A stretch of 64,000 nt of DNA, taken from contig NZ_LMNL01000001.1 of NCBI RefSeq assembly GCF_001422985.1, forward strand, positions 248,720-312,719, in the 5' to 3' direction. Positions 41,840-59,852 of this stretch are shown in pieces (position 1 is the first letter of the stretch; every line of letters starts with the position of its first letter). A model generated the notes under the pieces. That model had not been told where the DNA came from and searched no databases. It worked only from the letters and a program-made list of their open reading frames with translations. This DNA is from Methylobacterium sp. Leaf117 (lineage in GTDB: Bacteria; Pseudomonadota; Alphaproteobacteria; Rhizobiales; Beijerinckiaceae). Both the position numbers and the translations under genes were made by a program.

Positions 41840-42361
41840 TCATGATCGCTCGAGACGGGCCGGCACCCGGCGGACCTTGAGCCGCCGCGCGAATTTCGGC
41901 CCCGACAGCAGCCGGTCCCGGCGTACGAGATCGCCCGGTCGCGGCGCGGTCACGCCGATGACGCTCTCCCCCCGCGCGGCGAGTCGGGAGGGCAGGCCGG
42001 TATGCGGACGGCGCAGGCGCGCCAGGGACACCTCCGGTCGGGCGGTACCGATGAAGCGGTCGAGCAGGCGGATCCAGCCCTCCGCCGGGACATCGCCGGC
42101 TTCGAGGCAGAGCACCCAGTCCCGCCGCGCCGCTCTGGCGCCGGCCGACCACGGCGACGCGCCGCGTCCGCGCAGGACCACCTTGGCGCCCGTCGCCTCC
42201 GCGACCGTCTCGATCGCCGGGTTCGCACCGGCCACGATGATCACCGCATCGCCGACGAGGCCCGCCGCCACACCCGCCACCAGAGCGCCGAGGGTGTCGG
42301 CCAGCCGATCGATCGCTTCCGGGTCGTTGGGCCGCGTGACGGAGATCAGTGCCGAAATCAT
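41840..42361 (-). CDS. Short glycosyltransferase family 2-like protein
   Basis: A 173-residue protein with the start of a GT-A fold (ALISVTRPNDPEAIDRL, then AVIIVAGANPAIETVAEATGA) and VLCLEAGDVPAEGW at about 88-101 where family 2 enzymes carry the metal-binding D-x-D-like strand. It is shorter than typical GT2 enzymes of 220-300 residues, so it is probably a minimal or inactive homologue. I chose the ATG at 42361; the frame is open to 42418. It converges on the PilZ-like gene with 15 bp between. Confidence 0.65.
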   Translation of the reverse strand: MISALISVTRPNDPEAIDRLADTLGALVAGVAAGLVGDAVIIVAGANPAIETVAEATGAKVVLRGRGASPWSAGARAARRDWVLCLEAGDVPAEGWIRLLDRFIGTARPEVSLARLRRPHTGLPSRLAARGESVIGVTAPRPGDLVRRDRLLSGPKFARRLKVRRVPARLERS

Positions 42362-42504
42362 GCGCGCGCATACCGCATTTTTGCGTGAGGCCAAATTTCC
42401 ACGTCTCTGATGGCCCATCTCACACTACGGAGGCGCGTGCAGGGGGGGAGGAATGCTGGCCTCCGACCAAACGGCCTCGCGACTTCCCTGGGACGCCCCT
42501 GTTC

Positions 42505-42519
42505 GTTCGTGTTATGTTC
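42505..42519. promoter_or_regulatory. LexA-like SOS box before the radical SAM gene
   Basis: GTTC-GTGTTAT-GTTC matches the alphaproteobacterial LexA consensus GTTC-N7-GTTC exactly. It lies 17 bp upstream of the ATG at 42537, where it would overlap or adjoin the promoter. The two half-sites are direct repeats, as in rhizobial-type LexA sites. I did not find lexA or recA in the window. Confidence 0.6.
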
Positions 42520-42536
42520 TCGTCCGGGCAACGGGA

Positions 42537-43673
42537 ATGTTGGAGCGGATGCGGAACACGCGAACGGCCGATCTCACGGTGACGGAGAGCGCGCCCCGGC
42601 GCCTTGCCGAGACCACGCCCCTGCCGTCGGGCCGCCGCGGTCGGGGCGCCACGGCCAATCCGGGCAGCCGCTTCGAGCCGACGGGGCGGGAGGCCTTCGC
42701 GGATGGCTGGCCGGATCGCGATGCACCGGCGCCTTTGCGCACCGAGGTCCTGCCGGAGCAGGCGCGCACCCTGATCACCCGCAACACCTCGCCCGATATC
42801 TCGTTCGATCGCTCGATCAACCCCTATCGGGGCTGCGAGCACGGCTGCGTCTACTGCTTCGCCCGTCCGAACCACGCCTATGTCGGGCTCTCGCCCGGCC
42901 TCGATTTCGAGACCAAGCTGTTTCACAAGGCGAATGCGGCCGTCCTGCTGGAGCGGGAGCTGTCGGCTGCAAACTATCGCCCGGCCACCATCGCCCTCGG
43001 GACCGCCACCGATCCCTATCAGCCGATCGAGCGCGAGCATCGCCTGACCCGCTCGGTGCTCGAAATCCTGGCCCGTTTCCGCCACCCGGTCGGCATCGTC
43101 ACGAAGTCGAACCTCGTCCTGCGCGACATCGACCTCCTGGCCGAGATGGCGCGGGACGGGCTCGTGAAGGTCGCGGTGTCGGTCACCACCCTGGATCCGG
43201 AGCTGGCGCGCCGCCTGGAACCGCGCGCCCCGCATCCGGAGAAGCGCCTGGAAGCGATCGGCCGGCTGAGCGAAGCCGGCATTCCCGTGATGGTGATTGC
43301 GGCACCGATCATCCCGTCGCTGAACGATCACGAGGTCGAGGCGATCCTGACCCGGGCGCGCGCCCTCGGGGCCATCGAGGCGAGCCATGTCCTGCTGCGG
43401 CTGCCCCTCGAACTCGATGCCCTGGTCGACGACTGGTTCGCCGAGCATTACCCGGGGCGGCGCCGGCACGTGATGTCGCTCGTCCGGCAGGCCCGGGGCG
43501 GCAAGGCCTACGACGCCGCCTTCGGCACCCGCATGACCGGCACCGGCGCCTATGCCGACCTGATCCGCGACCGCATGCGCCTCGCCCGCCAGCGTCTCGG
43601 TTATCCCGAAGAGCGCCGCCGCCTGCGCACCGACCTGTTCAGGGTGCCGACCGACCAGCTGTCCCTGTTCTGA
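42537..43673 (+). CDS. Radical SAM protein, PA0069/SplB-like
   Basis: A 378-residue radical SAM protein. The cluster motif is C100-x3-C104-x2-C107 in YRGCEHGCVYCFAR, preceded by NTSPDISFDRSINPY, the signature of the PA0069 family, which is related to spore photoproduct lyase. The reaction is unknown; a role in DNA or nucleotide repair is an inference from the family and from the LexA-like box upstream. The start is ambiguous: the ATG at 42453 has a G-rich upstream stretch but lies before the box, and 42549 is another option. Its 3' end overlaps rnhB. Confidence 0.85.
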   Translation: MLERMRNTRTADLTVTESAPRRLAETTPLPSGRRGRGATANPGSRFEPTGREAFADGWPDRDAPAPLRTEVLPEQARTLITRNTSPDISFDRSINPYRGCEHGCVYCFARPNHAYVGLSPGLDFETKLFHKANAAVLLERELSAANYRPATIALGTATDPYQPIEREHRLTRSVLEILARFRHPVGIVTKSNLVLRDIDLLAEMARDGLVKVAVSVTTLDPELARRLEPRAPHPEKRLEAIGRLSEAGIPVMVIAAPIIPSLNDHEVEAILTRARALGAIEASHVLLRLPLELDALVDDWFAEHYPGRRRHVMSLVRQARGGKAYDAAFGTRMTGTGAYADLIRDRMRLARQRLGYPEERRRLRTDLFRVPTDQLSLF

Positions 43674-49163: not shown

Positions 49164-49276
49164 CGTCATTCCGGGGCCGCGAAGTGGAACCCGGAATCCC
49201 AGAACATACGTGGTATTCCAGTCGGTGACCTCGGCGACTCTGCATTCCGGGCTCGACGTCGGCGCCCTGGATTGAC
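49164..49276. repeat. Dispersed palindromic repeat between hprA and mtdA
   Basis: CGTCATTCCGGGGC (49164-49177) is identical to the left arm of the element at 12065, and ACCCGGAATCCC follows at 49189. The right half carries a related GCATTCCGGGCTC...GCGCCCTGGATT copy (49242-49275). It is a repeat family member lodged inside the serine-cycle cluster; it may affect mRNA stability. Confidence 0.7.
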
Positions 49277-49352
49277 AGCGCGGGTCGTGCCGCCGAACGG
49301 ACATACCAACACGAACGCCAGCCGCGCCGAGACGCGGGCGAGAGGACGCCAA

Positions 49353-50213
49353 ATGAAGAAGCTTCTGTTCCAATTCGATACCGACGCCGTTCCGAGCGTG
49401 TTCGACGTGGTGGTGGGCTACGATGGCGGCGCCGACCACATCACCGGCTACGGCAACGTCACCCCGGATAACGTCGGCGCCCTGGTCGACGGCACGATCT
49501 ACACCCGCGGCGGCTCCGAGAAGAAGTCGACGGCGATCTTCGTCGGCGGCGGCAGCATGGCGGCCGGCGAGGCCGTGTTCGAGGCGGTGAAGAAGCGCTT
49601 CTTCGGCCCCTTCCGCGTGTCGATCATGCTCGATTCCAACGGCTCCAACACCACCGCCGCCGCCGGCGTCGCGCTGGTCCAGAAGGCCGCCGGTTCGCTC
49701 CAGGGCAAGAAGGCCGTCGTGCTCGCCGGCACCGGCCCGGTCGGCATGCGCTCGGCCGCGCTCCTCGCCCAGGAAGGCGCCGAGGTCATCCTGTGCGGTC
49801 GGTCGCTCGACAAGGCTCAGGCCGCCGCCGACCAGATCAACACCCGCTTCAAGGTGAGCATCAAGGCCGCCGAGACGCCCGACGCCGCCTCGCGCGCCCA
49901 GATCGTCAAGGGCCAGAACCTCGTGTTCTCCGCCGGCGCCATCGGCCTCGAGCTGCTGCCCGAGGATGCCTGGAAGGACGAGGCCAGCATCGAGTTCGTG
50001 GCCGATTACAACGCTCAGCCACCCCTCGGCTTCGGCGGCATCGAAGCCATGGACAAGGGCAAGGACCGGCACGGCAAGAAGGTGTTCGGCGCCCTCGGCA
50101 TCGGCGGCCTGAAGCTCAAGCTGCACCGCGCCTGCGTCGGCCAGCTCTTCGACAACACCGAGCAGGTGCTGGACGCCGAGGCGATCTACGCCCTCGCCAA
50201 GAAGATGGCCTGA
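49353..50213 (+). CDS. mtdA: NADP-dependent methylene-tetrahydrofolate/methylene-H4MPT dehydrogenase
   Basis: Oxidises methylene-H4F to methenyl-H4F with NADP; in methylobacteria MtdA can also act on methylene-H4MPT. The protein is 286 residues. The NADP-binding motif is VVLAGTGPVGMRSAALLAQ near residue 131; the N-terminal KKLLFQFDTDAVPSVFDVVV and FSAGAIGLELLPEDAW near 193 are features I recognise from MtdA. The ATG at 49353 has GAGAGGA upstream; the frame is open to 49272. The next gene starts 5 bp after the stop. Confidence 0.97.
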   Translation: MKKLLFQFDTDAVPSVFDVVVGYDGGADHITGYGNVTPDNVGALVDGTIYTRGGSEKKSTAIFVGGGSMAAGEAVFEAVKKRFFGPFRVSIMLDSNGSNTTAAAGVALVQKAAGSLQGKKAVVLAGTGPVGMRSAALLAQEGAEVILCGRSLDKAQAAADQINTRFKVSIKAAETPDAASRAQIVKGQNLVFSAGAIGLELLPEDAWKDEASIEFVADYNAQPPLGFGGIEAMDKGKDRHGKKVFGALGIGGLKLKLHRACVGQLFDNTEQVLDAEAIYALAKKMA

Positions 50214-59417: not shown

Positions 59418-59633
59418 AACCGCCTCGTGCAAGCCTGAAACCGGCTTGTGCGCGCCTAAGAATCAACGCGTGCGCGCTGCGGAAAGCGCGTGCGTTTCTT
59501 AACGATCCCGCGCCGACACATCGTTCTGTGGCGGCGCCTTTCGAACCGACCTCGGGGAAAACCTGCGAATCCCGGTTGACCCACCCTGGCGGGTCAGACC
59601 ATGTTCCTGATCTGTTCTCAATCAGGATCCGCG

Positions 59634-59852
59634 ATGCAGCCTCGTCCCAACACCCTGTCCGAGTGGGCGGCTCCGGCGGAGGCCATCGTGTCCGCTTACC
59701 TGGAGGAGGCTGGCGGCGATGCGATCCTGGCCCTGCACCGCGCCGTGGCCGATGCCCTGACGGATCTGTGCGAGGCGGAGCGGCGAACCCTGCGGCGGGA
59801 CCGCCTGATCTCGCACGGCTACGTCCGGGGCCGGGCGGATTCCGCGGGCTGA
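59634..59852 (+). CDS. Small hypothetical protein (72 aa)
   Basis: A 72-residue soluble protein with a helical Ala/Glu/Arg-rich middle (AIVSAYLEEAGGDAILALHRAVADALTDL-like) and a basic tail. A moderate AGGA site precedes the ATG at 59634. It converges on the FNT channel gene, leaving only 7 bp between stops. No family recognised. Confidence 0.6.
   Translation: MQPRPNTLSEWAAPAEAIVSAYLEEAGGDAILALHRAVADALTDLCEAERRTLRRDRLISHGYVRGRADSAG

Follow-up and report, generated by a model that had tools for sequence, protein, structure and literature searches.

A PA0069-family radical SAM gene of Methylobacterium with a predicted LexA operator and a putative sliding-clamp docking tail

We identified in Methylobacterium sp. 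Leaf117 a radical SAM gene of the PA0069 family which is preceded, on the same strand, by the sequence GTTCGTGTTATGTTC, almost certainly a LexA operator as judged from its conservation, and which encodes a protein ending in QLSLF, a pentapeptide apparently suited to docking onto the sliding clamp. The analysis started from a 64-kb stretch of DNA, called the window in the following (Table 1). The operator, the family, the fold, the tail motif and the lack of the hydrogen-donor cysteine of spore photoproduct lyase (SPL) are supported by computation. We consider it rather likely that the protein is a radical SAM enzyme of DNA repair, induced in the SOS response and tethered to the clamp, and not a photoproduct lyase.

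Table 1. Positions of the features in the window; residue numbers refer to the 378-aa protein.
Feature	Position	Strand	Remarks
LexA operator (almost certainly), GTTC-GTGTTAT-GTTC	42505..42519	+	exact match, kept at orthologues, PWM rank 2/127,958
Divergent ORF	41840..42418	-	no family match; 86 nt from ORF start to box
PA0069-family radical SAM gene	42549..43673	+	NF033668; PF04055; start from relatives; alternative ATG 42537
CxxxCxxC, presumed 4Fe-4S ligands C100, C104, C107	42834..42857	+	202/202 orthologues
G-T-x-T-D-x-Y-Q-P, residues 155-163	42999..43025	+	by-eye alignment with SPL ACTSD holding catalytic C140
C-terminal QLSLF, residues 374-378, predicted sliding-clamp (DnaN) binding motif	43656..43670	+	conserved in orthologues

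Results

A box kept in front of orthologous genes

The initial annotation had read the GTTC-N7-GTTC sequence as the alphaproteobacterial SOS box and had named the presence of the box before orthologues as a check, a chance match being the objection. Exact GTTC-N7-GTTC occurs three times in the window versus 1.63 expected, with at least three matches in 23 of 100 shuffles, and 149 times genome-wide versus 80 for the reversed control. Such counts within the own genome are weak evidence when taken alone, and we therefore used conservation at orthologous loci instead.

We gathered 208 orthologue loci, of which three duplicates and two loci without the cysteine anchor were removed, leaving 203. For the own family, in which 115 of 119 genomes have a match, the 30 best-scoring loci were taken, as were the 30 with the highest scores in the phylum search, some of the latter belonging to the family or being duplicates; 110 loci were taken at class level, and all 40 loci of other classes over the cut-off were included, 38 of them being usable. 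For family and order, the sample thus mostly holds the loci with the highest scores; of the matches outside the sample, some are weak, broken or close to a contig end, and others exceeded the sample size. The box was searched on the sense strand in the 400 nt 5' of the conserved N-terminus.

The exact box is present in 150 of the 165 alphaproteobacterial loci, the window's own counted (own family 33/36, order 23/23, class 94/106), the counts not representing independent events since family trees were not used. In the same 165 loci, the controls yielded 7 matches for the reversed pattern, 2 for the antisense strand and 2 for the gene body, while re-spaced patterns were found 5 (N4), 2 (N5), 0 (N6), 1 (N8), 2 (N9) and 2 (N10) times and permuted patterns once (TTCG form) or never (GTCT form). 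Across the boxes the spacer varies, the eight bases and their spacing being constant. A second, named set of 80 loci, partly overlapping the first, shows the box in 74/79 and the reversed control in 0/79 loci, one locus having been omitted because its upstream sequence is too short, though the box is present. Of the 15 alphaproteobacterial loci lacking an exact box within the 400 nt, L011 carries it just beyond this stretch, at -412, nine contain a site with one mismatch and five have none; several of the one-mismatch sites are AT-rich, e.g. GTACTTGTTTTGTTC, and others are unconvincing, for instance the site of L205.

GTTC-N7-GTTC is found in none of the 38 loci of other classes. There, CTGT-N8-ACAG, which we take to be the E. 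coli-type LexA box, is present in 26/38 loci versus 0/165 in Alphaproteobacteria, suggesting another LexA-type box replacing GTTC-N7-GTTC; the looser CTG-N10-CAG occurs in 28/38 and 17/165 loci, respectively. The remaining 12 loci of other classes do not contain even a one-mismatch CTGT-N8-ACAG site, so that LexA control may be lost or different in these. Three exact matches where 1.63 are expected would be compatible with a box arisen by chance and a gene outside LexA control, but conservation at orthologues combined with the alternative box type in other classes makes such a coincidence highly improbable. The reading as an alphaproteobacterial SOS box is thereby supported, the box being exact and kept in both sets of orthologues.

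A matrix derived from 149 orthologue boxes, the window's own omitted, places the site second in the window. With 26.95 it scores lower than the median training box (34.0), and it deviates from their consensus, (A/T)TGTTCTTGWTTTGTTCT, directly before the first GTTC and at the first spacer base. From the two Caulobacter LexA boxes reported in the available part of PMC12700426, GTTCttgttatGTTC, it is one spacer base apart. A sigma-70 scan revealed no promoter-like site at the box. Given the short distance between the start of the divergent ORF and the box, LexA could also touch the promoter of this ORF.

Further boxes in the window and the genome

The first rank among the 127,958 window positions is held by another box, GTTCCTGATCTGTTC (59603-59617, + strand), located 16 nt 5' of the start ATG of an ORF of 72 aa (59634-59852, + strand), for which Pfam has no match. 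This ORF has relatives in the genus with an exact box upstream at 7 of 8 loci, its own one counted, and is perhaps a small SOS gene not described so far. The third exact match of the window (49389-49403, + strand) has a GC-rich spacer, lies within the coding ORF 49272-50213 and is probably a chance match.

The same genome encodes LexA, TIGR00498 matching twice in a single frame with 171.9 bits over both matches (cut-off 110.95), and two overlapping exact boxes are found about 70 nt upstream of lexA on the opposite strand, while no exact box is present within 1.5 kb of recA and uvrA. The AT-rich form GTTC-NNN-WWWT-GTTC, a pattern picked after viewing the box list of this genome, occurs 13 times versus once for the control. 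Some of these 13 boxes adjoin, on either strand, ssb, a DNA polymerase III alpha gene, parC and an ImuA-like gene, the matches for the polymerase, which is cut off by the locus end, and for ImuA scoring under the curated cut-offs. At two further loci of this genome (L043 and L048, at about position 1501 each), tight LexA-type boxes overlap the starts of ORFs of 302 and 151 aa without NCBIfam match, possibly further unnamed SOS genes. A LexA match is present in 211/241 genomes of the class; with genome size as a confounder, the co-occurrence of LexA and PA0069 was left out of the evidence, and at least one genome (G223) has a good PA0069 match but no LexA match.

Family membership and translation start

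The window protein is a plain member of the PA0069 family without any difference from it, reaching 513.5 bits with NF033668 (cut-off 360; NCBIfam model type hypothetical equivalog) and aligning with residues 34-378 to positions 1-348 of the 348 of the model. It also matches Radical_SAM (PF04055), and its closest named relatives are from Methylobacterium. PA0069 matches are found in 136 of 241 sampled alphaproteobacterial genomes, a few of them weak or broken, and in a phylum-wide sample of 249 genomes, 114 have a match exceeding the cut-off; in phages, the search yielded nothing but distant relatives of partial length, 10 records that all cover less than 80%. Two genomes of another class (G572 and G430, loci L114 and L115) contain three PA0069 matches each on one contig, some being partial. 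To our knowledge, no reaction has been assigned to PA0069 proteins.

The start had initially been placed at 42537 or later and not at 42453, as the relatives confirm. In the closest relative (L010/L230, identical there; 79-80% identity), the box is followed by three in-frame stops before the sole start, excluding 42453 by analogy, and this start is an ATG 44 nt past the box start, a distance leading to 42549 in the window. Start candidates in L231, L238, L013 and L295 are 35-51 nt past the box start; L012 has its first ATG directly 3' of the box, and L011 differs in its arrangement. By this analogy, 42549 is somewhat better supported than 42537, the position from which the residues of the 378-aa protein are counted here.

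An SPL-like fold lacking the SPL hydrogen donor

The AlphaFold2 model (104 aligned sequences, pLDDT 89.4) has SPL as its closest solved fold, with Z 19.1-19.7, 267-275 residues aligned and an rmsd of 3.3-3.7; the structure 4fhf reaches Z 19.7 over 268 residues, the next family being NifB with Z 15.2, and SkfB, SuiB, RlmN and TYW1 are further radical SAM folds among the structure matches. A sequence search of the PDB with the single protein gave nothing under E 0.25 and a profile search reached SkfB and NifB, not SPL, so that the relation to SPL is seen by fold only. Aligning with SPL by hhalign covers 69 columns with a probability of 30%, a weak sequence similarity, and the SPL models TIGR04070 and TIGR03886 do not match the window protein at E 0.001, whereas an SPL control sequence matches both, TIGR04070 over its cut-off.

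The hydrogen donor of SPL is a cysteine, i.e. C141 in B. subtilis, C140 in Geobacillus and C74 in Clostridium acetobutylicum, acting in a relay with two tyrosines (available part of PMC5368176). The window protein contains three cysteines in total. At column 156 of the conserved G-T-x-T-D-x-Y-Q-P segment, T, A, I, S, V, G or M are found and Cys in 0/202 orthologues, while T158, D159, Q162 and P163 are invariant. As hhalign covers 69 columns only, the equivalence of this column to C140, read by eye and not from a residue-level structural alignment, rests on the shared T/S-D step and on the missing fourth conserved Cys. The latter is independent of the alignment: none of the columns of the 202 orthologues contains a fourth conserved Cys, the next best ones having Cys in 65/202 and 60/202. 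The residue following the third cluster Cys, which is the redox tyrosine in SPL, is mostly Phe in the PA0069 orthologues (F 147/202, Y 55/202), the preceding Tyr being kept in 202/202.

Compared with SPL (PDB 4FHC and mutants), the protein has the overall fold and the CxxxCxxC motif in common and differs by having no equivalent of the catalytic, hydrogen-donating Cys, no match to the SPL family models and a clamp-type tail where SPL has AYVQYFT; by the family models and the Cys pattern it does not count as an SPL. The tie to photoproduct lyases made by the initial annotation thus holds for the PA0069 radical SAM assignment and the SPL-like fold, the likeness being one of fold only, and does not extend to the hydrogen-donor Cys, in whose absence SPL chemistry as known is not expected. 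These comparisons suggest the PA0069 protein probably not being a photoproduct lyase. A functional spore photoproduct lyase or other UV-dimer lyase under SOS control has been proposed in PMC3323433, as its available part reads, with splB, photolyase and photoreactivation as names in the literature, and the best structural match agrees with it, SPL at Z 19-20 being about 4 units over the next family; we nevertheless regard it as unlikely, given the failure of both SPL models, which recognise the SPL control, the lack of a fourth conserved Cys, the predominance of Phe at the redox-Tyr position and an SPL C-terminus without clamp motif.

A conserved tail of the clamp-binding type

The clamp-type tail was not part of the earlier reading of this gene. 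The clamp-binding consensus is QL[S/D]LF, more generally QxxLF, according to the available part of PMC12309361. We found Qxx[LMF][FLI] within the last 12 residues in 190 of 202 orthologues, the incomplete L229 omitted, versus 5.5 expected when shuffling the last 30 residues (family 34/36, order 22/23, class 97/105, other classes 37/38); it is missing from this region in 12/202. Other windows of the same proteins contain the motif in 12/5107 cases; among further open frames of 150 codons or longer near the named loci, spurious ones included, it occurs in 4/1354. All proteins of the named set (79/79) carry it in their last 14 residues. Extending the region to the last 35 residues gives 194/202, and five of the eight proteins lacking it end in a hexapeptide-like form, e.g. 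QMALDL. The strict QL[SD]LF is present in 41/202 orthologues and Qxx[LM][FL], within the last 12 residues, in 180/202, and Q374 and L377 are at least 95% conserved among the 202. In the model, the last eight residues form a tail of lower confidence (mean pLDDT 68) with a short helix at 374-377.

A tail of this type is also seen at individual loci: QLSLL in L321, where the tail was located by the motif, and GQLDLFAGIV in a plasmid copy of Legionella adelaidensis, for which the tested stretch contains no CTGT-N8-ACAG. The pattern is found in 0/5 of the more distant relatives (Lachnospira mobile pair B, Haloarcula, Nostoc, Runella, Gemmatirosa), the Gemmatirosa protein ending in QLSLGI, a hexapeptide-like form.

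A tail this short can serve another role. SOS proteins often are short-lived, and in 159/202 proteins the motif reaches the very C-terminus, as degrons often do, both of which would suit a hydrophobic tail that is not a clamp motif and acts, e.g., as a degradation signal limiting the protein after SOS. We judge this improbable, as Q1 and L4 are the best conserved positions and the fit of Qxx[LM][FL] in 180/202 is to the published clamp consensus, and as QxxLF is followed by further residues in L020, L022, L105 and L064, which a C-terminal degron would hardly tolerate. The conservation pattern argues for QLSLF being a putative docking motif for the sliding clamp.

Discussion

LexA control of a 'splB'-type gene has been predicted since 2012, and the core of our observation is not new: Sanchez-Alberola et al. 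2012 (PMC3323433), in the part available, predict that splB is preceded by LexA sites in alpha- and beta-Proteobacteria, termed photoreactivation, this control being absent from the gamma-Proteobacteria of that study. An alpha-type box in Alphaproteobacteria and a divergent box in Betaproteobacteria are common to that prediction and our data. S. meliloti is among its species, and in one strain of this bacterium the pSymB-borne PA0069 orthologue carries GTTCTTGATTTGTTC; we infer that the splB of that work, as far as its available text describes it, belongs to the PA0069 family. Its label is photolyase, whereas the cysteine and family data obtained here oppose SPL chemistry, and the available text does not mention a clamp motif. 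The parts available of two further sources call SplB SOS-regulated in several species (PMC8565304) and link SplB-like proteins to SOS operons (PMC3765255). Searching the main texts of papers on SOS, DNA repair or iron limitation in Caulobacter (PMC12700426, PMC1839093, PMC6120978, PMC13384398) for terms naming this kind of gene returned nothing. Judged by titles and beginnings of abstracts, literature on PA0069 offered nothing on SOS or radical SAM, and none was found joining Rv2578c with LexA. PA0069 presumably is part of the LexA regulon of P. aeruginosa, as we assume Rv2578c to be in M. tuberculosis. We found no report of a clamp motif in the PA0069 family in a search with most subscription literature lying outside it and some items judged by title. 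As far as our searches reach, the clamp-type tail in this family and the SPL fold without the SPL hydrogen-donor Cys are novel.

The actinobacterial sister is the Rv2578c family (NF038135), a separate NCBIfam family. Its Tsukamurella member shares 43% identity over 195 residues with the window protein, scores 223.9 bits on NF033668, which is under the cut-off, and touches TIGR03886 weakly (20.4 bits); relatives from Streptomyces, Arthrobacter and Nonomuraea have 47-54% identity to it. All four carry the tail, i.e. QESLF in Tsukamurella, QLTLL in Streptomyces, QEPLF in Arthrobacter and QLRLL in Nonomuraea. GAAC-N4-GTTC is present upstream in two of the three relatives of the Tsukamurella protein, and Tsukamurella itself has no exact match. 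In Streptomyces venezuelae, the radical SAM gene vnz_31145, whose membership in the Rv2578c family we assume, is described in the available part of PMC9380542 as LexA-bound with a 19.97-fold change with mitomycin. Archaeal SplB-like genes adjoin nreB, and the question of their substrate has been raised; NreA has a C-terminal PCNA-binding motif, that of NreB being less clear (available part of PMC4929162). A link of an SplB-like enzyme to the sliding clamp thus is common to the archaeal system, as described there, and the present one; unlike in the archaeal Nre case, the clamp motif here is on the enzyme itself, the single Haloarcula relative examined being without the tail.

The data are consistent with a model according to which LexA on the box would keep the gene low in undamaged cells, whereas DNA damage would activate RecA, resulting in LexA self-cleavage and production of the protein along with the other members of the SOS regulon. 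The SPL-fold radical SAM enzyme, carrying one 4Fe-4S cluster, would be brought to stalled or recently copied DNA by its flexible QLSLF tail docking in the protein-binding pocket of the sliding clamp, and its 5'-deoxyadenosyl radical would act on a damaged nucleotide in the clamp-bound DNA. The repression and derepression steps follow from the operator, the clamp step from the motif, and the lesion step from fold, regulation and motif together; from these we infer LexA binding, damage induction, clamp binding and DNA as the substrate, the latter by guilt by association. As the SPL hydrogen-donor Cys is missing, the substrate would more likely be another base lesion or crosslink than the spore photoproduct, and with no Cys returning the hydrogen, either 5'-deoxyadenosine would return it directly or the reaction would not be a simple reversal. 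An SOS-induced radical SAM enzyme docking on the clamp might instead modify a protein, such as the clamp or a polymerase, or RNA, as the related SkfB, SuiB, RlmN and TYW1 folds act on peptides or RNA; we assign this a low probability, the nearest fold, SPL, being DNA-acting and SOS control together with the clamp motif fitting DNA repair.

Extending the preferred reading, that of a clamp-tethered repair enzyme, to the PA0069 and Rv2578c families as a whole is more tentative: they could represent a widespread, replication-coupled class of SOS radical SAM repair enzymes working on the clamp, directed at a lesion other than the spore photoproduct and returning hydrogen without the Cys relay of SPL.

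It is the conserved clamp-docking tail occurring together with the missing SPL Cys that raises the interest of this family. Due to the missing Cys, the photolyase label is better dropped until tested, and the tail offers a simple separation-of-function mutant. If confirmed, the LexA operator and the clamp tail would place PA0069 proteins at the replication fork after damage and pose a concrete repair question, namely which lesion on clamp-bound DNA requires radical chemistry.
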